Shown here: positions 39,112 through 49,587 of the stretch, in pieces
Position numbering within the stretch: the stretch's first letter is position 1
How the letters are laid out: each line of letters begins with the position of its first letter
NCBI GenBank assembly: GCA_013177855.1
Contig: JABLYA010000002.1
Location: 1-64,000 of the forward strand
DNA: 64,000 nucleotides
DNA from: Ignavibacteria bacterium
GTDB lineage: Bacteria; Bacteroidota; Ignavibacteria; Ch128b
Direction: 5' to 3'
Position numbers and translations under genes: made by a program
The notes under the pieces: model-generated
The model's input: the letters and a program-made list of their open reading frames with translations, nothing else
What the model was told of the DNA's origin: nothing
Database searches by the model: none

Positions 39112-42100
39112 TCACTTAATTACAAACCTGAGATTTTCAATTATTAGCTTGCCAATTCTTGGATTAATTTCAAAACCAATTTTTTCAGGTTCAGACTTAA
39201 ACGAGAATTTTTCTAGAAAATTTTTGTCTATTTCAATTTCATAATCTCCGGCTGTCAATCCATAAAAATAGAATGAACCATCACTAAAAGTTGACAGCAA
39301 ATATTTTTTATTTGTTTTCAAATTTCTCACAACCAACTTGACATTTGAAATTGGAATTTCTTCTTTATCAAGCGATCGAACGACAATTCCACCAATTTCG
39401 CCAGTTTCATAGTAAGGTAATTGTATGACCTTTAATCTATTTCCATCTGTCAAGATATTAAAATCCGAATGCTCAAACGAATAATTTATTGATTTGAGAT
39501 TCGTCTCATTCAATTTAATTGAATATTCTTGATAGGGATTTAAACCAAAGAAAATTCTTGCATCGTTTTTAAGTTTAGTTGAATAAACTGCAGAATTGAG
39601 TATGAAATCTACGCCTTTAATATTTTCTTCATCTTTATCTTTTAAGCCATTACCATTTTTATCTTCGAATCCTTCAATAAAAAGGCCAGCTCTGCCTATT
39701 TGCGGTTCACGGTAGAAATAGAGTTGATTAATCTCAGGGCTATAACCAACCGAACCACTCAATTGATGATTGTATAAATCTTTACCACTGGAGTTAGAAA
39801 TGTATCTGAATTGAGGTAATTCAAGGAAAAGGCTGACATTAAAGTTTGATGTTGGAATCTGGACGATATTCTCGTAATTAATCTGAAATCTTAAATCTTT
39901 TGTTAAAGTTGCAGTATAGAAAATTGAGTAACTAAAAATTTTTTTCTTGAGAATATCAAGAGTCGTTTTCGAGCTTAAAAAACTTCTATTTAAGATTGGA
40001 ATGCTTCGAGCTACATTATTAAAATTAATTGTAGAGCTTAAAACTAATTCTCTTCTTTTGAGCAATGAATTTGTCTTAAAATCTTCATAATTAAAACCAG
40101 CGCTAAAACTGACCCAATTCAGCAGAAAAAATGAATTTAAATTCCAGAAGTTTCTTTTGAAACTTTCAGCATCTATTTTTTCAAAATTTAAGAAGACACC
40201 AAGTTCACTGAATTTAAATTTTATGGGAAAGTAGAAACTTGATTTATAAGAATTTTTTAATCTTGCGAGATTATAAAATTTGTGAGGTTTATAATTAATG
40301 TATTCAAAATAAGAGGAAGCATAATCGGGAAGAACATAACTTGCAGTAATTTTTGATTGAATTTTTGGAGAATAAAACACATTAAAAAATAAGTTTGATG
40401 AAAGTCTAAGAGTGCTTTTGCCAAAAAAATTGAGAAACTTTTCGGTTGTATCGCTTAAAAATTCTGAACCAGCATTTAAAGTCAAATAATCTTTTAAGCC
40501 ATACTTAAATTCGATATTAGCTAACCTGTTTTGCGTAAAACGCAATCTTCCAAAAGCTGCATTATAATTAAAGACACCTTCAGGTAATAAATCGTAAGGT
40601 ATTTGAAAAATTTTTCTATAAGATTTTGTCTCGCCTTTTAAAGTATGAATTCTAAACTCATAATTCGACATTCCATATTTAATAGGTATCTCAAAGTAAA
40701 AATTACTTTTATCGTCTGATTGAGTTAAATCGATTAATTCATTGTTTAAATAAAGCTCAACATAACTATGCGGTTCTGCAAAATCCCGATAAATATAAGT
40801 TCCAAGTTTTTTTCTCGGTTCAACTGGTTCATTGGTTAAGTTAATTCCACGATAGGTATAGGTATTAATCCCTTCAATATAATTATCACCAATAATTACT
40901 TGAGTTAAATAGTTATTTGGGTCGGGTGTATACTTCCAGTTAAAATCTTCTATGATACTTTTTGAATTGGCGGTTTTAAAAATCTGTCTTGAATAATAAA
41001 AATCGCCGTAAAGAAATTCCCCACCAAGTGCTGTGTTTAGATTAAAATTCGATCTCTGATTTTTTAATATCGTTTGATTAACACTATAGTCAAAAATAAA
41101 TCCATTTAATAGACTTCTTTTTCTCGTGAACAACAAAGGCAATGCAGTTTCCTCTTTTGGAAATTTAAAAGAAGAAAGTTTCTGTCTGAGCATAAATTCA
41201 TTATAGACTGGCAAAGGTCGTTCGCTTTTCACATAAAGAATAAGATTTGAAAAGTCGAAGTCTAATTTCAGGTTTAGAAGTTTCTCAATGAAATTTAAAG
41301 AGAAGTATTTCTGATCATACTGAACAATATTTTCGTCCTCATTTATATCAAACTCACTGTATTGATTTTTTGCTTTGTTTTTTTGTAAGTCAACATAAAA
41401 ATAGTTTGAAGTATTATCAGTTGTTCCTTCGATAAGATTCTCGTTTTCTATTGTAAAAGGTATCTGAAGTATTTGAAGCAAATCGGTGAGAGAAATAAAA
41501 ATTTTATCTTTATAAGAAACAGCTTGAATGAAAGATTTAACAACTCCAGCATACTCAAGATTTAACAAGATTTCTTCAATTTCATCACTTGAAAAATTAT
41601 CTGCTTGAGGTAAATCGAATTTAGGTGTTTCAAAAACATTGACTGTAAAATACAATCTGCCAGAATAGATTGATCGTCCATCATTGAGGTTTGCCTTAAT
41701 ATTCCAGCGATATGATGAATTATTTTCAAGTATTCCTGCAGGTAATGTGAATACAGTGTCTTTCAGCTTAAATGATTGTTCAGTATCATAAATCAGTTTA
41801 TAGTTTCCCTTATCATCTCTTTTACTGATCGCAAGTGAATAACTCTCTGCCTCAGGAATCCTTTTCCAGATAAATGTAGGTGTGGTAGTGGCAACTATTT
41901 CTTTATTTTCTACCTTGTAACCGGGATAAATTGCTTCAGGGGCGATTATTTTTTTTGGTAAAGTAATATAAAAGATTCGTTCATCTGAAAGTGATGAATT
42001 TTTAAATTTATCGACTGCTCTGATCTGCCAGACATATTTTAAATCAGGTTTAAGAAGATTGCCTTTGAGAACAAAAAATGTATCTTTTATCAAACCAAAA

Positions 42101-42717
42101 TTTTCTTCTGAAAAGATTTTTCTTTTTTTACCACTTTTACTTTCTTCAAATATTATTAATTCATAGCCAACTGCATCTTTATGTTTTAACCATTTAAATA
42201 CTGGATTTAGATTTTTGATATTTTCTTTTTCAGGAGAAAATTTTCCTGGCGATATTGTTACAGGTTTATCTTGAAATTGTCTTTTCTTTAAATTCACCTT
42301 CAGGTAAAATTCATCACCAAAGTTGCCCCAATTTTTGCCATCAAATGCACGAACATTCCAGCTGTAAGATTTTCCGTCCTGCAAAACTAAATCCGGAACA
42401 ACAAAGAATGTATCTGTAAGCTCAAAAGTTCGAATTAATGCAATAGATTTATCGTCAATGCCGGGTTCATCTTCTTTAATAATTAACTGATATTTTGATG
42501 CATTGCTCACACTATACCAGTTGAAAGTTGGATTCAATGTGCTTACAGTATCAATGACCAATTGAGATTGGATGGGTCTATTAAGACCTGGAAATCTGGT
42601 TAATAAATCTTGAAAATTAAAAATTGGAAAAAGAACAGTAGGAATTAGAAATAGTTGAAATAAAAGCAAAATCATCAAAAACTTAATTTTCGGGGATCTC
42701 AATATGTATTTTCTCAT
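39112..42717 (-). CDS. Usher-like outer-membrane protein with FN3-type N-terminal repeats
   Basis: The 1201-residue protein appears to be a divergent fimbrial usher. After a signal segment come three FN3-like domains (about 50-150, 155-255, 260-365) with repeated FxWxxxxxAxxYxL patterns. A mixed domain (about 385-515) resembles an usher N-terminal domain (KIFISLTDLLQIL; ILYVKSERPLPV). The large barrel (about 530-1000) contains a usher-style plug segment (YVELYLNNELIDLT) and the entry RYGL-type motif (IEFKYGLKDYLTLNAGSEF). From residue 1008 two C-terminal beta domains follow, the first with EF-like DKNGNGLKDKDE. The gene overlaps the chaperone gene by 35 bp; an internal ATG at 42675 would remove the overlap. 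Confidence 0.72.
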   Translation of the reverse strand: MRKYILRSPKIKFLMILLLFQLFLIPTVLFPIFNFQDLLTRFPGLNRPIQSQLVIDTVSTLNPTFNWYSVSNASKYQLIIKEDEPGIDDKSIALIRTFELTDTFFVVPDLVLQDGKSYSWNVRAFDGKNWGNFGDEFYLKVNLKKRQFQDKPVTISPGKFSPEKENIKNLNPVFKWLKHKDAVGYELIIFEESKSGKKRKIFSEENFGLIKDTFFVLKGNLLKPDLKYVWQIRAVDKFKNSSLSDERIFYITLPKKIIAPEAIYPGYKVENKEIVATTTPTFIWKRIPEAESYSLAISKRDDKGNYKLIYDTEQSFKLKDTVFTLPAGILENNSSYRWNIKANLNDGRSIYSGRLYFTVNVFETPKFDLPQADNFSSDEIEEILLNLEYAGVVKSFIQAVSYKDKIFISLTDLLQILQIPFTIENENLIEGTTDNTSNYFYVDLQKNKAKNQYSEFDINEDENIVQYDQKYFSLNFIEKLLNLKLDFDFSNLILYVKSERPLPVYNEFMLRQKLSSFKFPKEETALPLLFTRKRSLLNGFIFDYSVNQTILKNQRSNFNLNTALGGEFLYGDFYYSRQIFKTANSKSIIEDFNWKYTPDPNNYLTQVIIGDNYIEGINTYTYRGINLTNEPVEPRKKLGTYIYRDFAEPHSYVELYLNNELIDLTQSDDKSNFYFEIPIKYGMSNYEFRIHTLKGETKSYRKIFQIPYDLLPEGVFNYNAAFGRLRFTQNRLANIEFKYGLKDYLTLNAGSEFLSDTTEKFLNFFGKSTLRLSSNLFFNVFYSPKIQSKITASYVLPDYASSYFEYINYKPHKFYNLARLKNSYKSSFYFPIKFKFSELGVFLNFEKIDAESFKRNFWNLNSFFLLNWVSFSAGFNYEDFKTNSLLKRRELVLSSTINFNNVARSIPILNRSFLSSKTTLDILKKKIFSYSIFYTATLTKDLRFQINYENIVQIPTSNFNVSLFLELPQFRYISNSSGKDLYNHQLSGSVGYSPEINQLYFYREPQIGRAGLFIEGFEDKNGNGLKDKDEENIKGVDFILNSAVYSTKLKNDARIFFGLNPYQEYSIKLNETNLKSINYSFEHSDFNILTDGNRLKVIQLPYYETGEIGGIVVRSLDKEEIPISNVKLVVRNLKTNKKYLLSTFSDGSFYFYGLTAGDYEIEIDKNFLEKFSFKSEPEKIGFEINPRIGKLIIENLRFVIK

Positions 42718-43513
42718 CTGGCACTGAGATTATTTTAATAGAACTTTCTGGAATATCTTCTTTCTCAGTATTAACGGCGGTGATATTTAGTTCATACTTC
42801 TTTCCTTTTTCAAAATCTGAGTGGTCAATCTGAATTTTCTTCAATAATTTGTAATAAAGCGGAATATATTCACTTAATGTTTTGACAATATTTCCTTTCT
42901 CGTCTTTTACTTTAACCAATAAATTCCCAATAAAAGGTGAATTACCAATTCTTTCAAGTTCAACTATCAAATTTGTTTTCCCTGAGTCAGGGACGAGTTC
43001 TAAGTTCGAAATTTTTACACCGCTTTCTCCAACACCTACTCTATAAAGACAGGTGGTGACCTGATTCAAAACAAATTTAATTCTTGCAGTAATACCTGAT
43101 TGCATTGTATCAATTTGTTCAGAATAAGGAGTTGCCGAAGTAATTATTCTTGTCCAATAGGTTCCAGGTTGTAGAGTATCAGGCGCTTTTATTGTTAAAC
43201 GTATAACCTGTCTTTTCTTTGGTGGAAGAATGAACTTTTTTGGAAATGCTCTGATGTAATTATTGATCGAAGATGCTTGAGAAGAGTCATTTTCAAAATA
43301 TTTCATTAATATTTGTCCTGTTGAGTCAGAAACAGGATATCCAAAAGTAAATGAAACCGAAATTTCATAATTGTTTTCAGATTCATTTTGAACGATGAAG
43401 TTACCAATCTTATTGTTTTGATCTGTATAAACTATATAAGGTGAAATTAAAATCTGAGAATAAATACTTAGTGATGAAAATAAAATTAGAATCACAGAAA
43501 GAAATATTTTCAT
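42683..43513 (-). CDS. PapD-like periplasmic pilus chaperone
   Basis: The 276-residue product has a signal peptide ending IYSQ and an N-terminal immunoglobulin fold. It has the chaperone G1-strand-type segment FPKKFILPPKKRQVIRLTI (about 90-108) before LQPGTYWTRI, closely matching PapD/FimC organisation. The second Ig-like domain and a C-terminal extension of about 40 residues follow. It lies 1 bp behind a pilin-like gene and overlaps the usher gene. It should cap subunits until they reach the usher by donor-strand complementation. Confidence 0.82.
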   Translation of the reverse strand: MKIFLSVILILFSSLSIYSQILISPYIVYTDQNNKIGNFIVQNESENNYEISVSFTFGYPVSDSTGQILMKYFENDSSQASSINNYIRAFPKKFILPPKKRQVIRLTIKAPDTLQPGTYWTRIITSATPYSEQIDTMQSGITARIKFVLNQVTTCLYRVGVGESGVKISNLELVPDSGKTNLIVELERIGNSPFIGNLLVKVKDEKGNIVKTLSEYIPLYYKLLKKIQIDHSDFEKGKKYELNITAVNTEKEDIPESSIKIISVPDEKIHIEIPEN

Positions 43514-43514
43514 T

Positions 43515-43976
43515 TCAAATTACCTCAATTGTTATAACTATGGTGCCTGTATATTCACCGGGAGAAATTGTGCTCGTGCTGTTAATTTGACCTCCAAGCC
43601 ACAAATAAAGTTTTTGATTATTCTTAATTTTTCTTATGCGTAATGGAGAATAAGGATTAAAATATGTCCTGCCTGTTATTGCATCCACCTTAGACCATGA
43701 AGCATAATTATTAAAGTTTATTGATACATTATCTATTCCATTTGATAAAGAATTAGGTAGAGAAAGTGTTAAAAGAAAATCCTCTCTAATTGTTGAAGTA
43801 TGGTAGAAACTTATTTTTAAAGCATTTGGATCTGTATCAGGTACATTTGCACTGTAACCAATAAAAACTTCACCAAAGTTTAAATCACTAAGCTTTTGAA
43901 CAACAACCTGCCCAAATATTATTTGGGTTTTAATCAATAAAGTTATTACAAAAATTATAAGCTTGATTTCTTTCAT
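43515..43976 (-). CDS. Pilin-like secreted subunit (spore coat U/DUF4402-like)
   Basis: The 153-residue protein has a signal peptide ending IFGQ and a single beta-sandwich domain: KLSDLNFGEVFIG near the start and SPGEYTGTIVITIEVI at the end. This first-strand/last-strand pattern is that of chaperone-usher subunits. It differs from its two neighbours in lacking VWVGGS (it has LWLGGQ) and in a central insertion. It may be a minor or tip subunit. The gene is 6 bp behind the next subunit gene and 1 bp before the chaperone gene. Confidence 0.72.
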   Translation of the reverse strand: MKEIKLIIFVITLLIKTQIIFGQVVVQKLSDLNFGEVFIGYSANVPDTDPNALKISFYHTSTIREDFLLTLSLPNSLSNGIDNVSINFNNYASWSKVDAITGRTYFNPYSPLRIRKIKNNQKLYLWLGGQINSTSTISPGEYTGTIVITIEVI

Positions 43977-43982
43977 ACTTGT

Positions 43983-44486
43983 TTAATAAGCTATTGATAT
44001 TACGAGTATTCCTGAATAATCACCTTGTAAATTTGATTGATTTACAATCAAAGAACCTCCAACCCAGACATTCAATATTCCTTCTCCGTTTTGATTTTGA
44101 GGTTGGTAATAGACTCCTGATTGTATCTCTACTGGATTAACAAAATCAGTATTTATTCCAGTATGTACGATCTTTGGTATAAAAACTGGACCACTTTGAT
44201 TTTGATTATTTATCAGATTTATAGTATTGAAATCAACTAAGACAGGTTTTTCAGGATGAGAGATAATTTTAAATTTTACTCCTTCTTCTGGTGACTTAGT
44301 AAAAAATTGTTGAGAATTGGATAAAACAATTTCTCCAAAATCAAGAACATTATTTTCGCTGCTCACGCTGATACCACGTTTTAATGAAGCCTGTACCGAA
44401 ATATTAATCTGCTCATTATTCTGACTGTATAAATTATAAGTCGCTAAGATTAAAACTAGTAAAAAGAAAAAAGTTTGTTTGTTCAT
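43983..44486 (-). CDS. DUF4402 family pilin-like subunit
   Basis: The 167-residue product has a signal peptide ending LYSQ, then the N-terminal extension EQINISVQASLKRGISVSS and the beta-sandwich of DUF4402: LDFGEIVL, VKFKIISHPEKPV, PKIVHTG, LNVWVGGSL and the final strand QGDYSGILVISIAY. It is paralogous to the gene at 44487-45059 (same motif order, similar spacing). It directly abuts that gene, with no gap. The role is a structural subunit of a surface fibre assembled by the chaperone and usher encoded downstream. Confidence 0.82.
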   Translation of the reverse strand: MNKQTFFFLLVLILATYNLYSQNNEQINISVQASLKRGISVSSENNVLDFGEIVLSNSQQFFTKSPEEGVKFKIISHPEKPVLVDFNTINLINNQNQSGPVFIPKIVHTGINTDFVNPVEIQSGVYYQPQNQNGEGILNVWVGGSLIVNQSNLQGDYSGILVISIAY

Positions 44487-45059
44487 TTAATAAGTCACTG
44501 TTATGTTGAATGTTCCTGTATAATCGCCAATTGGTTGATTTGCTTGAATGTTTAATGAACCGCCAACCCAGACATAAAGAATTCCTGTTCTATTTACTGC
44601 AGGCAATTGATATGAACCACCATTGGCTACTTGTTCTGGCAAATCATAAACAGAGCTTGAACCTGTATGGACAACATTTGGTGTAAAATTCAATGAGCCT
44701 ACAATCCCACCATTTTGAGCAACCCATTGAGCATTTGATAAAGAAGTATAGTTATAGGAGATAATCACATTTCTGTTAGGATGTCCTTCGATTCTGAAAA
44801 CGGCTCCCTGCGAAGGATGAAGGTTATAAACAAAAGCTGAGCCTGTTAAAATAATCTCTCCAAAATTTATTGAATTATTAATTGCTGTAATAGATAATGG
44901 TTTAACCATAATGACTCTTGCCAATCCTGAAATGCTTGTAGTTTGAGCAGATAATGTTGAAAGATAAAAGGCAAAAACAATAACTATTTTTCCAACATAG
45001 TTCATAATTAAAGTTATGAAATTCATTACTGAAAATAAATTAAAAGAAGGGATATTCAT
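44487..45059 (-). CDS. DUF4402 family pilin-like subunit
   Basis: The 190-residue product shows a long N-terminal region with three possible starts (residues 1, 12 and 19); the one at residue 19 (45005) gives the best signal peptide, MNYVGKIVIVFAFYLSTLSAQ. The mature domain carries NSINFGEIIL, VFRIEGHPNRNV, TPNVVHTG, LYVWVGGSL and the last strand GDYTGTFNITVTY, i.e. DUF4402. It is first in a five-gene run (two DUF4402, pilin-like, chaperone, usher). TATTTTTG on the minus strand (45098-45091) could be its -7 promoter element. Confidence 0.8.
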   Translation of the reverse strand: MNIPSFNLFSVMNFITLIMNYVGKIVIVFAFYLSTLSAQTTSISGLARVIMVKPLSITAINNSINFGEIILTGSAFVYNLHPSQGAVFRIEGHPNRNVIISYNYTSLSNAQWVAQNGGIVGSLNFTPNVVHTGSSSVYDLPEQVANGGSYQLPAVNRTGILYVWVGGSLNIQANQPIGDYTGTFNITVTY

Positions 45060-45154: not shown

Positions 45155-46783
45155 TTACTTAATCAATACCATTTTTAAAACCTTAGAATTTTTAGATTGC
45201 TTGAGCTGAGCATAATAAATTCCGCTCGGTAAACTTGAAGCATCAAAGTTCAGATTGTACAATTTGCCAGCTTCAAGCTCAGAATCAATCAATGTTTTAA
45301 TTTCTTGACCAACCGAATTGAAAACTTTTAAAGTGGTTTTTCCACTTTCTGGAAGAATGAAAGAGATATTTGTTGATGGATTAAAAGGATTTGGATAATT
45401 CTGGAAAAGCTCAAATGTTTTAGTTCCTAGATCAAATTCCTCAACTCCCGTTGTGTAATTAGTAAATTGTGGATTATAATTAGTCCATCCTTCATCCCAT
45501 CTTAGTCCGTTCGGATCAAATGCACCAACATAAGTAGTCTGTGTAAAGAAGGAAGATAATCTTGGGTTGTTAAAACTGGCTCCGCTTGCTGCAGGTGAGT
45601 TGATTGCAGGAACTGGATTTGGATTGGTTGGATTAAATGGATCAATTAAACCAACACTCGATGGCTGGACATATCTTCGATTACCATAGGTTGGATTGTC
45701 ATACCAACCTTGTGCATCAAAACCACTCTGATTTGTAATAATTCCATTACCAGCTCTTAAACCAGCCCATATTGAGTTTCTTATTTGAAGCGTATCGCCG
45801 GTTGCTGAATTACGAACTGCTGAACCATCCAACAACAAACCGGTGGGGAATCCCATCACAATTGAATTATAAATTGAAGTTTGTGCAGCTCTTCTGATAT
45901 GTGCACCTCTTCTGAAATTTGGATTGTATTGTGTGAAAGAAGTATCAGGCATTGGACCAATAATTGTAAAGTTAGAAATCACGGGCAAAGTTCTTGGTAT
46001 GTTATATGTGCCAGTTCCATCATTATCCGTTTCAAATCCATTTGAACCAGAAATATCAGCAATGTTAGGATCTCGAATTGCAAGTCCAAATTGTAGATTT
46101 CCACTAAATCCGAAATCCATATCAAAATCATCGTCAACTCCTTTATAAGAGATAAGATATTTTGCATTAACATTTCCACCAAACCATTCAAAAGAATCAT
46201 CTCCTGAATAACTTACTTGCACATATTCAATGACAGTGCCTCGACCGACACCGCCAAGTGTTAACCCATTTATTTCATTATCAGGCAGAAAAGCAATTCC
46301 CGGAAATTCAATACGTACATATCTTAAAATCCCACTATTGTCGTTATCATTTGGATTTGCCCCACCACCGTAAATCGTTCCTGTTCCTCCTTCGATTGTT
46401 GCAGTTCCACCTGGTACATTGATTCTAGCATTGCCAGCAATAATAATCCCACCCCAATCACCGGGTCCCCTTTGCCCCACGGGTTGTTGACTTGTGAAAA
46501 CTATTGGTCTTTCTTTTGTTCCGTTTGCAATAATCTTCGCCCCACGATTAATGATTAGAGTTCCTTTTGAATCTTTTTCACCATATATAATTGTTCCTGG
46601 TTCGATTGTTAATACAGCAGGAGGATTAACATTAACAAAACCACGAAACAAATATTTCTTTGTGCTCGATAAATATGCATTAGAATTAATATTACCTTCT
46701 ATTACACTATCAACTGGTGCGAGTTGAGCAAACAGATTAATAGAAAATAAAACAAGACTTAAAAGTAAAGTATTTACTTTCAT
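45155..46783 (-). CDS. T9SS-exported beta-helix-like surface protein paired with a TonB receptor
   Basis: The 542-residue protein has a signal peptide ending LFAQ. Residues about 30-430 contain repeated short-strand patterns (LTIEPGTIIYGEKDSKGTLIINRGAKIIANGT, GDWGGIIIAGNARI) suggesting a right-handed beta-helix. The C-terminus is a type A T9SS sorting domain with NYPNPFNPSTNISF...SGIYYAQLKQSKNSKVLKMVLIK. It is thus expected on the cell surface. It follows the TonB receptor gene after 14 bp, so they form one unit; the pair probably captures and imports a common ligand. AAGGAGATACTC precedes the start. Confidence 0.88.
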   Translation of the reverse strand: MKVNTLLLSLVLFSINLFAQLAPVDSVIEGNINSNAYLSSTKKYLFRGFVNVNPPAVLTIEPGTIIYGEKDSKGTLIINRGAKIIANGTKERPIVFTSQQPVGQRGPGDWGGIIIAGNARINVPGGTATIEGGTGTIYGGGANPNDNDNSGILRYVRIEFPGIAFLPDNEINGLTLGGVGRGTVIEYVQVSYSGDDSFEWFGGNVNAKYLISYKGVDDDFDMDFGFSGNLQFGLAIRDPNIADISGSNGFETDNDGTGTYNIPRTLPVISNFTIIGPMPDTSFTQYNPNFRRGAHIRRAAQTSIYNSIVMGFPTGLLLDGSAVRNSATGDTLQIRNSIWAGLRAGNGIITNQSGFDAQGWYDNPTYGNRRYVQPSSVGLIDPFNPTNPNPVPAINSPAASGASFNNPRLSSFFTQTTYVGAFDPNGLRWDEGWTNYNPQFTNYTTGVEEFDLGTKTFELFQNYPNPFNPSTNISFILPESGKTTLKVFNSVGQEIKTLIDSELEAGKLYNLNFDASSLPSGIYYAQLKQSKNSKVLKMVLIK

Positions 46784-46797
46784 AAATGAGTATCTCC

Positions 46798-49587
46798 TTA
46801 ATTTAGTTTATAACTTATTCCTAATGAGTAAGTTGAGTTTGTTTTTATAACTCTTGCCGGCAAGTTACCCTGTACAAACTCAACATCTTTAGCAAGGATA
46901 TCCTTAATACCAAAACTTAAGCTAAATCCTGAAAATAGAGGCTGTGAAATTTTCAAATCGATTATATCACGCGGTTTTTCAATTATATCGTCTTGATATG
47001 CTGTTGCAACTTCTACAATTCTTTCGCCAATGCGGTTATAAAAAACCGAGAGTGAGGTACCAAGTGTTGGTTCAACAAAGAATAAACCTAAATTGATAAC
47101 ATAAGGTGATTGTCCCTGAAGTGGTCTATTTTCTCTTGCTATTGTTGTTTCGGTTCCTTTGACATTAACGAGTGACTTTATTCTTGTATAATTTCCATTA
47201 ATAGAGAGATTTTCTAAATAATCACTAATAAATCCAAAAGAAAATCTTCCTTCAATTTCATAACCATAAACTTTTGCTTCATCGGAGTTCATAAATGTTC
47301 TTTCAGAACCGAGTGCGCTGCCTGTTACAACAACTTTTTCTATTGCATTTGAAATCTTTTTATAGAACAAGCTGGCTGAAATTAATTTCCCTAAGCCAGG
47401 AAAACTTTCAATTCTTAAATCATAATTTTTAATGAAGGACCTTTGTAAATCGGGATTACCACGCAATGATGTTTGAGTTGCAAAATCGAAATATGCAAAC
47501 GGAGCAAGTTCTCTTAGTTCAGGTCTATTTAGTGTTTGACTGTAAGATAATCTTAGATTGGTCTTATCATTTAATTTATAAAGAAGATTGATTGATGGCA
47601 GCAAGTCAATTTTCTTCAAATGATTTGATATTGGGATCTGTCCACTAAGATCCATCGAATTAATTTTTTGAAGAGCATTTTCTAACCTTACTCCGCTTAT
47701 AATATTTAAATCTCGTTCAAGTATTTTCACAGGAATTTCGGTCATTGCATAGCTGGCGAAAATCTCTTCTGATGCAGAGTAATTATTAGTTCCATTAACA
47801 TATTCGTCTATTGAAAATCCATTCTGTCTGAAATTCTCAGATTCAAAAATTTTATCTAAAGGAAGATACAATAAGCTGAAATCGGTAAACCCATTACCTG
47901 GTGCATTGATAATTACACTAATTAATCGAGATGAAAAATCTCTTTTTACTTTATCATAAGAGATACCCAATTTGAATTTTGTAGAATAAAATTTTGTTTT
48001 AAGGTCAAATGATATTCCTCGTGATTTATCATAAAGATTTGAGAAAAACCTTCCGCTATTTTTAAGATTTGGCTGAAAACCTAAAACAGCGGCAAAAGGT
48101 AAATCTTCACCAATATCTCTTGCATAATAAATTCTTCTATAATCCGGTTCATTTTTTCTTGAATTATTAAGATAAATCTTCCAGTCTATTTTTAATTCAT
48201 TCAATGAAGCGATGTAATGTTCCCCACTTAATTGAGTAGAAATCAAATCTCTTTCAATGTATCTAAGAGCGGTTTGTTTTTGCTCTTTTCCCGCGTCGGA
48301 ATATTGGTAACCGTGTAATTGTGAAACTTCATCATCTGATGTATGAGAATAAAGATTTTTCAAGCTAAACTGATGATTACCTGAAATTTTGTAACTAAGA
48401 TTAAAAAGCCCTCCAATGTTTTTTGACAGTTGAGATCTGTTTCCAGAATACTCAAACCGTTTTTCACCGCTCGACTCATATTCGTTCAGTATTGAAAAAG
48501 AATTTTTATAATCATTCTTGTAATTGAAAGCAACTAAGAAACCAAACTGCTGACCAATAAGTTTTGCCCCATCTCCAATCATAAATGAAAAGCTCTGATT
48601 TAATGGTGCCCTTGTTGTATTTGGTGACCAAACATTTTTCAAACTTCTTGCCAGTTCATTTATTTCGTTTCGAGCCAAACCTGATTTAGTCAAATCGTGA
48701 GGGAAATTAGAAGGAAGATCTCTGCTGCCGTTATCAAATCCCCAGAAATTAGTTCCATTAGGATATGTAAAGAAACTTCTTAATGTAGTATTGTCAGTAT
48801 ATGATGAAGAATAATTAAAATTAACTTTCAAATCTTCTGGAAAACTTATAGTATTTAATTGAACTACTCCGCCTGCAAAGTTAGCTGGTAGATCAGGCGT
48901 GTAAGACTTAATTACATTTGCATTTTCAATTAAACTTGCTGAAAGTAGATCAAATGAGAAAGCTTTTTTCTCTGATTCTGTACTTGTCAGATTTGTATTG
49001 TTTAATTGGGCGACATTATACCTCTCGCTCGTGCCTCGAACATTTACAAACTTATTCTCAATTAGTGTAACTCCGGTTACTCGCTTTAAAACATCACTTG
49101 TCAGCCCATCGGTTGTTTTTCTAATTTGTTCAGAGCTGATGCCATCCATTATATTTTGTGAATTCTTTCTGAGATTAAGTAAGGCACTTTCAAAAGATTT
49201 ATCAACTTTACCAGCTACAACTACCTCCTGCGTTTCAATAATATTGTTGCTTAATGTGATTTTTAATTCAGTTGTTTTGTTAGCTTCAACCTTTACATCC
49301 CTGATTATTTTTGTCTGATATGCAATGTGACTTATTTTAATATTGTATAAACCAGTTTCAATTTCTTTTATAGTAAACTTTCCATTAAGATCTGTTGCGG
49401 CACCAATGAATGTATTTTCAATCAAAACATTACCGCCGATAATTGCTTCTCCAGTCACTTCATCTACAACAATACCAGTAATCGTTCCCTTATTCTGAGA
49501 GAAAAGATCAACCTGGAAAAATATTAAGAAAACGGTTACAAGAAATATCATAAAACTTTTTAACTTTTGGTTGATTTTATTTCTCAT
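46798..49587 (-). CDS. TonB-dependent receptor with carboxypeptidase-regulatory domain
   Basis: The 929-residue protein has a signal peptide, then a CarboxypepD_reg-like domain (about 33-115: GTITGIVVDEVTGEAIIGGNVLIE), a plug (about 120-245 with LKRVTGVTLIENKFVNVRG) and the 22-strand barrel ending SYSLGISYKLN-type. It imports a large or scarce nutrient across the outer membrane using TonB energy. Start supported by CCAAGGAGATAAAA. Upstream lies the Pho-box-like array (49628-49676), so the ligand may be phosphorus-containing. The gene behind it encodes a surface beta-helix protein. Confidence 0.93.
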   Translation of the reverse strand: MRNKINQKLKSFMIFLVTVFLIFFQVDLFSQNKGTITGIVVDEVTGEAIIGGNVLIENTFIGAATDLNGKFTIKEIETGLYNIKISHIAYQTKIIRDVKVEANKTTELKITLSNNIIETQEVVVAGKVDKSFESALLNLRKNSQNIMDGISSEQIRKTTDGLTSDVLKRVTGVTLIENKFVNVRGTSERYNVAQLNNTNLTSTESEKKAFSFDLLSASLIENANVIKSYTPDLPANFAGGVVQLNTISFPEDLKVNFNYSSSYTDNTTLRSFFTYPNGTNFWGFDNGSRDLPSNFPHDLTKSGLARNEINELARSLKNVWSPNTTRAPLNQSFSFMIGDGAKLIGQQFGFLVAFNYKNDYKNSFSILNEYESSGEKRFEYSGNRSQLSKNIGGLFNLSYKISGNHQFSLKNLYSHTSDDEVSQLHGYQYSDAGKEQKQTALRYIERDLISTQLSGEHYIASLNELKIDWKIYLNNSRKNEPDYRRIYYARDIGEDLPFAAVLGFQPNLKNSGRFFSNLYDKSRGISFDLKTKFYSTKFKLGISYDKVKRDFSSRLISVIINAPGNGFTDFSLLYLPLDKIFESENFRQNGFSIDEYVNGTNNYSASEEIFASYAMTEIPVKILERDLNIISGVRLENALQKINSMDLSGQIPISNHLKKIDLLPSINLLYKLNDKTNLRLSYSQTLNRPELRELAPFAYFDFATQTSLRGNPDLQRSFIKNYDLRIESFPGLGKLISASLFYKKISNAIEKVVVTGSALGSERTFMNSDEAKVYGYEIEGRFSFGFISDYLENLSINGNYTRIKSLVNVKGTETTIARENRPLQGQSPYVINLGLFFVEPTLGTSLSVFYNRIGERIVEVATAYQDDIIEKPRDIIDLKISQPLFSGFSLSFGIKDILAKDVEFVQGNLPARVIKTNSTYSLGISYKLN

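Follow-up and report, generated by a model that had tools for sequence, protein, structure and literature searches.

A probable chaperone-usher assembly operon of a divergent, DUF4402-pilin lineage in an Ignavibacteria bacterium

The window analysed here is a stretch of 64,000 nucleotides (nt) from an Ignavibacteria bacterium (assembly GCA_013177855.1, contig JABLYA010000002.1), whose genome of 3.66 Mb is held in 10 contigs. A cluster of five minus-strand genes lies at 39112-45059 and encodes, in the order of transcription, pilin 1 (44487-45059, 190 residues), pilin 2 (43983-44486, 167 residues), pilin 3 (43515-43976, 153 residues), a PapD-like periplasmic chaperone with two immunoglobulin (Ig) domains (42683-43513, 276 residues) and an outer-membrane usher (39112-42717, 1201 residues). 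The genes are close-packed, with gaps of 0-6 nt, and the usher and chaperone open reading frames (ORFs) share 35 nt. An earlier reading of this DNA by a model that saw only its letters and ORFs (the sequence-only reading) had proposed a divergent chaperone-usher pilus system here; the five ORFs stand at the place and on the strand that it gave, and the motifs that it quoted are present. The cluster is very probably a chaperone-usher assembly operon, and its lineage, of which DUF4402 pilins are typical, is divergent and non-classical.

Folds of the usher and the chaperone

Single-protein searches of Pfam, NCBIfam and the PDB with the window proteins returned no usher or PapD match, and the Pfam usher model PF00577 has no match anywhere in the source genome. 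Alignment profiles compared with the PDB led from the usher to SdrD/Bap-like domains and from the chaperone to WxLIP, and to nothing else. Since sequence and profile searches were uninformative, comparison at the level of the fold was needed.

For the usher core (residues 370-1201), an AlphaFold2 (AF2) model built from an alignment of 65 sequences reached a predicted local distance difference test (pLDDT) score of 87. The model contains about 24 barrel strands with a plug after strand 6; counted by hand from the DSSP assignment, six barrel strands are followed by a six-stranded sandwich, which is the plug, and by about eighteen further barrel strands. The barrel is flanked by an N-terminal domain (NTD) and two C-terminal sandwiches (C-terminal domains, CTD1 and CTD2), and the order NTD, barrel with plug, CTD1, CTD2 is that of FimD. 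A Foldseek search of the PDB with the core placed FimD or PapC at all of ranks 1-19 (E 9.6e-30 to 8.4e-10), with unrelated proteins only below. Furthermore, a single pairwise hhalign comparison with E. coli FimD (E 3.2e-4) ran from the barrel through the plug to the post-plug strands. The plugged barrel on which the sequence-only reading had staked its usher is therefore present in the model.

On the minus strand, the NTD, predicted to dock the chaperone, occupies 41227-41577 (residues ~381-497, from the AF2 secondary structure) and the beta-barrel 39739-41109 (residues ~537-993, ~24 strands by DSSP on the AF2 model). Within the latter lies the plug domain (40600-40809, residues ~637-706), which includes YVELYLNNEL and was delimited by AF2 and by hhalign to the FimD plug. 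CTD1 and CTD2 (39118-39690) carry an SdrD_B-like match (PF17210, E 8e-7) and a CarboxypepD_reg-like match (PF13620, E 9e-4). Ahead of the core, an N-terminal extension (41638-42600, residues ~40-360) holds about three FN3/Ig-like domains, matched by PF25788 over two stretches and by PF06051. It is missing from most relatives, PF25788 being found also in a Melioribacteraceae usher (L073).

In the region of the NTD, PF07833 is matched by 9 of 38 related ushers (in that of locus L105 at residues 55-143). As to accessory domains, several Balneolaceae ushers end in SPOR domains, and in a mixed set of 38 ushers SPOR occurs in 14 and TPR in 12; one Porphyromonas-labelled usher has both OmpA and SPOR. 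As SPOR and OmpA domains bind peptidoglycan, the ushers bearing them may be tethered to the wall.

The chaperone was modelled by AF2 with a pLDDT of 91 as two Ig domains, and Foldseek gave CsuC as the best match (3.3e-9), followed by EcpB (3.4e-9), with SafB, CfaA and Caf1M also among the matches; the PapD fold expected of the 276-residue protein was thus recovered. A single pairwise hhalign comparison with EcpB agreed (E 2.4e-5), while that with FimC was uninformative. Within the family, PapD_N is matched at E <= 0.1 by 12 of 38 chaperones (best 1.2e-6). A bridge is provided by a chaperone on a Polaromonas plasmid, which matches the family profile at E 4.8e-32 and also passes the PapD_N cut-off (25.3 vs 23 bits); the usher beside it matches the family over its full length (E 3.1e-48) and has no Pfam Usher match.

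Substrate recognition and the pilins

Five positions of the chaperone (P91, Q102, Y119, G190 and G196) are invariant in 64 of 64 sequences. P91 is the invariant proline of the superfamily, and hhalign pairs it with the proline of EcpB. An arginine stands at Y119+3 in 52 of the 64 and at Y119+1 in the remaining 12, never at both and never at neither, and positions 120 and 122 covary row by row (W120-R122 in 46, F120-R122 in 6, R120-H122 in 11 and R120-Y122 in 1). The R122 form belongs to Ignavibacteria (including the window), Balneolota, Cyclobacteriaceae and Zixibacteria; the R120 form to Flavobacteriaceae, Chitinophaga, Porphyromonas-labelled and other Bacteroidia loci and most proteobacterial members (GEYRSHL, GEYRAHM). 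Archaic and alternative chaperones are marked above all by an F1-strand arginine (PMC4654587). The arginine of all 64 sequences sits in the strand of this non-classical diagnostic residue, in two registers two residues apart, and the shifted arginine of the window form (R122) would be its equivalent. Because the chaperone rows are related, the switch of register may represent one or few events. It offers a natural experiment on substrate anchoring, in which the arginine takes either of two positions and the other position changes in step. By conservation, the candidate anchor for the pilin carboxylate is R122 in strand F1 with the domain-2 partners Y220 (60 tyrosine, 4 phenylalanine) and R188 (44 of 64), and a candidate G1 donor strand lies at ~141-149, marked by an I-A-I-F-L alternation. 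Two single ORFs elsewhere in the family (L062:8173-9498 and L064:10489-11499) were hit by both the chaperone and the pilin profiles and are perhaps natural chaperone-pilin fusions, although both are truncated in the stretch of sequence analysed.

Pilin 1 matches DUF4402 (PF14352) above the cut-off (E 1e-9), whereas pilin 2 falls just under it (E 7.8e-5, 23.8 bits against 25.2), so that one of the two DUF4402 subunits named by the sequence-only reading passes. Pilin 3 matches PF14352 weakly (E 2.5e-3) and is picked up by the family profile. The incomplete Ig fold expected of such subunits is suggested by family membership. Pilin 1 has an N-terminal extension of ~25 residues, a donor-strand candidate, ahead of strand A (INFGEI), and its C-terminal sequence is GDYTGTFNITVTY; the DUF4402-like pilin 2 has an extension of 26 residues. 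Pilin 3 has no donor-strand extension, its sequence after the signal peptide being QVVVQKLSDLNFGEV. This was read directly, since for a few pilins, pilin 3 of the window among them, the automatic extension rule misplaced strand A or the cleavage site. The same division holds in relatives: in the chaperone-adjacent pilin of Ignavibacteria and Melioribacteraceae, strand A follows the signal peptide after 5-10 residues (so too in the pilin 3 orthologues of L071-L074), compared with ~25 in the other pilins. The tip position in chaperone-usher systems belongs to the subunit that lacks a donor strand. Pilin 3 could accept a strand and not donate one, and is therefore probably the tip subunit, as judged from its sequence and by analogy with such systems.

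At the other end of the subunits, 199 distinct pilins were compared with other ORFs of the same loci. Glycine stands at -14 from the C-terminus in 60% of pilins vs 6% of other ORFs, tyrosine or phenylalanine at -2 in 61% vs 9%, and large hydrophobic residues at -4, -6 and -8 in 84-89% vs 29-49%. Such a pattern is known for PapD substrates. In pilins 1 and 2 of the window the tyrosine is the last residue, i.e., one residue short of the -2 pattern; strand F of archaic CsuA/B is likewise one residue shorter (PMC4654587). The N-terminal regions show a hydrophobicity alternation averaging 1.22, against 0.60 in shuffles, in the 126 of 199 pilins where a crude rule located the cleavage site. By direct reading, the mature parts of the three window pilins are free of cysteine, and 161 of 201 related pilins have none beyond residue 45.

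Assembly of a fibre would begin with Sec carrying the pilins and the chaperone, whose signal peptides were read directly, over the inner membrane. There the chaperone would supply its G1 strand to fill the incomplete Ig fold of each pilin and would hold the C-terminal carboxylate by R122, Y220 and possibly R188, and the complex would be handed to the N-terminal domain of the usher. With its barrel, plug and two C-terminal domains, the usher would catalyse the swap of the chaperone strand for the N-terminal extension of the next pilin, and the fibre would thread through the usher pore with pilin 3 at the tip and a shaft of pilins 1 and 2. Its role is probably adhesion or biofilm growth. An orphan DUF4402 pilin of 177 residues with a 26-residue N-terminal extension lies near dnaA (L155:8021-8554; source genome C1, at ~1.877 Mb), with no chaperone or usher adjoining, and is possibly an additional shaft subunit. 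Relatives encode one to six pilins, and in two of their loci a further pilin-like ORF lies on the opposite strand beside the cluster: L078:15737-16141, recognised by eye only (it ends KGELTTTIEYF), and L113:10634-11158, which matches the pilin profile.

Spread of the family and its place among chaperone-usher systems

Chaperone and pilin genes stand beside the usher in 56 of 62 named loci (those with enough upstream sequence), with the usher directly 3' of the chaperone in 43 (median gap 1 nt; gap <= 50 nt in 37), and of the 40 loci that the first phylum search yielded, most show the same content; the gene content is therefore not due to chance. The order pilin-chaperone-usher is kept in Ignavibacteria, Balneolota, Bacteroidia, Zixibacteria and proteobacterial plasmids, so that the synteny proposed as a check holds over several phyla. 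The named loci include Ignavibacteria, Melioribacteraceae, Balneolaceae, Flavobacterium, Algoriphagus, Chitinophaga, Porphyromonas-labelled metagenome-assembled genomes (MAGs) and Zixibacteria, while the proteobacterial plasmid members are from Polaromonas, Novosphingobium and Sphingopyxis, with a related form in Pseudoalteromonas. The family is common in Bacteroidota and their relatives, and it reaches beyond Ignavibacteria and Bacteroidota to Zixibacteria and Proteobacteria.

Many genomes matched the full usher profile through its FN3-like N-terminus alone, and the genomes were therefore recounted with the core profile. On this count, the usher occurs in 66 of 296 genomes across the phylum (E <= 1e-10) and in 37 of 149 genomes of the class, a patchy distribution. 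PF00577 is over its cut-off in none of the 296, with three sub-threshold matches, all inside loci of this usher family. Surveys based on PF00577 thus miss a family carried by about a fifth of these genomes. Public annotation of the proteobacterial clusters reads "DUF4402 - chaperone - carboxypeptidase regulatory-like", without naming the usher as such; the exceptions are Pseudoalteromonas Bsw20308, where the usher is called SdrD B-like, and Novosphingobium ES2-1, where it is hypothetical.

Most sequences of the Fibrobacteres-Chlorobi-Bacteroidetes (FCB) group cluster by phylum or family in the usher tree. Two genomes of family f21 (Chlorobi-like at a guess, partly from the pilin type) are placed among the proteobacterial ushers with 98% support, a position which suggests horizontal movement between these lineages. 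Three loci titled Thioalkalivibrio, Nitriliruptoraceae and Methanofastidiosia (L119, L121 and L122) resemble Balneolaceae of the same sediment metagenomes, and their taxon labels are probable binning errors.

Several observations weigh against a chaperone-usher assembly operon. The comparison of the 1201- and 276-residue proteins with the Pfam Usher and PapD models, suggested by the sequence-only reading, gave no match; the usher matches no Pfam or NCBIfam usher model, and the chaperone has no Pfam match over the cut-off and none to the Pfam or NCBIfam PapD models. Template modelling scores (TM-scores) over the whole usher chain lie in a moderate range (0.44-0.60 against the larger usher structures), in part owing to domain orientation. 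The cluster has no gene for a large two-domain tip adhesin, and donor-strand complementation is argued from a sequence pattern. Finally, six Chitinophagaceae loci (L128, L130, L136, L145, L149 and L150) have usher and pilin with no adjoining chaperone; in these, the usher and pilin come after a protein of ~2430-2456 residues. In L139, by contrast, the usher is closely followed by a second pilin and the chaperone.

Two wholly different identities for the cluster can be weighed briefly. It is very improbable that the protein resembling a chaperone serves as a surface scaffold of WxLIP type beside a barrel exporting something else: by sequence, its nearest Pfam family and PDB chain are WxLIP (PF06030, E 3.2e-3; PDB chain 9i25, E 5.7e-3), and WxLIP appears in the fold search at E 2e-8, yet CsuC and EcpB outrank it there, PapD_N recognises part of the family and is over the cut-off in the Polaromonas homologue, and the adjoining barrel has the fold of an usher. 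Type V (FimA/Mfa1-like) pili, known from Bacteroidia and so from the same broad taxonomic group, have lipoprotein pilins and no usher. A pilus of this type is hardly conceivable here: the usher fold refutes it, a chaperone is present, and the pilins are DUF4402-like, none of the three in the window having a lipobox. As to the form of the product, it is unlikely that chaperone-usher assembly here yields a thin polyadhesin or a surface coat without fibres, comparable to the Caf1 capsule, instead of a rod-like pilus. The three small single-domain subunits, the missing large adhesin and the range of pilin number in relatives would suit it; nevertheless, the coexistence of subunits with and without an N-terminal extension suggests an ordered fibre, and the extension-bearing orphan pilin elsewhere in the genome also weighs against a coat.

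The remaining alternative concerns ancestry, namely that this is an ordinary archaic (sigma) system which has drifted past the reach of Pfam. Likenesses to archaic Csu (CsuC-CsuD of Acinetobacter baumannii) comprise the two-Ig-domain chaperone with CsuC as best structural match, the F1-strand arginine of domain 1 (retained as in archaic and alternative chaperones), the invariant proline and the conserved domain-2 tyrosine, as well as pilins with an N-terminal extension and a hydrophobic C-terminal strand. Moreover, part of the Bacteroidia and the proteobacterial members carry the arginine as YRSH, others as YWxR, and the deep branch that separates the family from known ushers is supported at only 15% by the Shimodaira-Hasegawa-like approximate likelihood ratio test (SH-aLRT). 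On the other hand, the window usher matches no usher model over its cut-off by sequence, and the usher of an archaic-type, spore-coat-U cluster in Palleronia (L157) matches the family profile over only ~150 columns (E 5.7e-4), whereas a family member from another phylum matches over its full length (E 3e-48). In the usher tree, in which one usher from an archaic-type cluster was sampled, the five known ushers cluster together, weakly (74%). The anchor arginine is moved by two residues in most members, the cluster has no two-domain tip adhesin, and many ushers bear accessory FN3, SPOR, TPR or OmpA domains. The archaic clade is marked by spore-coat-U type pilins with a disulphide that is conserved in CsuA/B (PMC4654587), while the pilins here are of DUF4402 type and mostly cysteine-free. 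Archaic drift is a possible but doubtful origin.

The alternative (alpha) E. coli common pilus EcpB/EcpC resembles the window system in EcpB, the second-best structural match of the chaperone, and in the C-terminal carboxypeptidase-regulatory-like domain of both ushers; however, EcpC matches TcfC and CooC_C, the window usher neither, and their hhalign match is limited to the C-terminal part (E 8e-3). Classical FimD/PapC share fold and domain order, with ~10-15% identity, and differ in the non-classical F1 arginine of the window chaperone and the extra N-terminal domains of its usher. The clusters of Polaromonas, Novosphingobium and Sphingopyxis plasmids and the Pseudoalteromonas form agree in gene order and family, although their chaperone arginine is in the other register and their ushers lack FN3 domains.

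A separate lineage, as the sequence-only reading had ventured, is thus supported by full-length profile matches within the family and partial ones to known ushers, while the deepest branch of the tree lends it little; it may be a fourth division or a distant offshoot of the archaic one. With somewhat less than even confidence, we propose a fourth major division beside the classical, alternative and archaic ones. Its marks would be DUF4402 pilins, a carboxylate anchor that in most members is shifted in register, and ushers which often carry fused peptidoglycan-binding domains. Loci of this division in the FCB group would further be associated with surface proteins secreted by the type IX pathway and, in Balneolaceae, with a set of genes for MotA/MotB/FliG domains, which might power the fibre or anchor it.

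Chaperone-usher systems have been placed in Proteobacteria, Cyanobacteria, Deinococcus-Thermus and Spirochaetes (PMC4654587, PMC4827864). A search of the open-access literature on DUF4402 (no paper), on ushers in Ignavibacterium and on chaperone-usher systems in Bacteroidota, with subscription papers and preprints outside its scope, found no description of the present system. Novelty lies in the lineage, in how widely it is distributed over the FCB group and in its escaping the standard usher model; the assembly principle is already known. Cultured carriers (Flavobacterium, Algoriphagus, Balneola and Gracilimonas) make it feasible to ask if Bacteroidota build such pili.

Neighbouring genes

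The closest named relatives of the usher are from two Ignavibacteria MAGs (52% and 50% identity), in which the flanks are kept too: an ORF of ~900 residues, a type IX protein of 546-548 residues, three pilins, chaperone and usher. On the 3' side of the usher, a DJ-1 family protein and then the next two genes are also common to both MAGs and the window. Directly upstream of the window cluster, on the same strand at 45155-49587, lie a type IX substrate of 542 residues and a TonB-dependent-receptor-like ORF of 929 residues, and L071 and L072 retain two such genes of comparable size. The 542-residue protein was considered as an operon member; since it adjoins the TonB-dependent-receptor-like gene here and in both of those loci, it may belong to that pair and not to the operon.

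Across L071-L150, a type IX secretion type A sorting domain ends 25 of 52 genes directly upstream of the pilin cluster and at most 2 of 60 downstream neighbours (it is absent among the 25 families listed), in loci that are not phylogenetically independent. The source genome has 126 such domains in its 3.66 Mb. In Balneolaceae, the usher is followed on its 3' side by an ORF of ~617 residues that begins like a signal peptide and has FliG domains, and then by genes for a TPR protein, for a channel of MotA/ExbB type and for a MotB/OmpA/SPOR protein. This gene set beside the pilus genes is stator-like. It was noted in L078, L088, L089, L091, L094, L096, L099, L101, L105, L110, L133 and L140; the domains were examined in L094, the sizes agree in the other loci, and 11 downstream genes match fliG.

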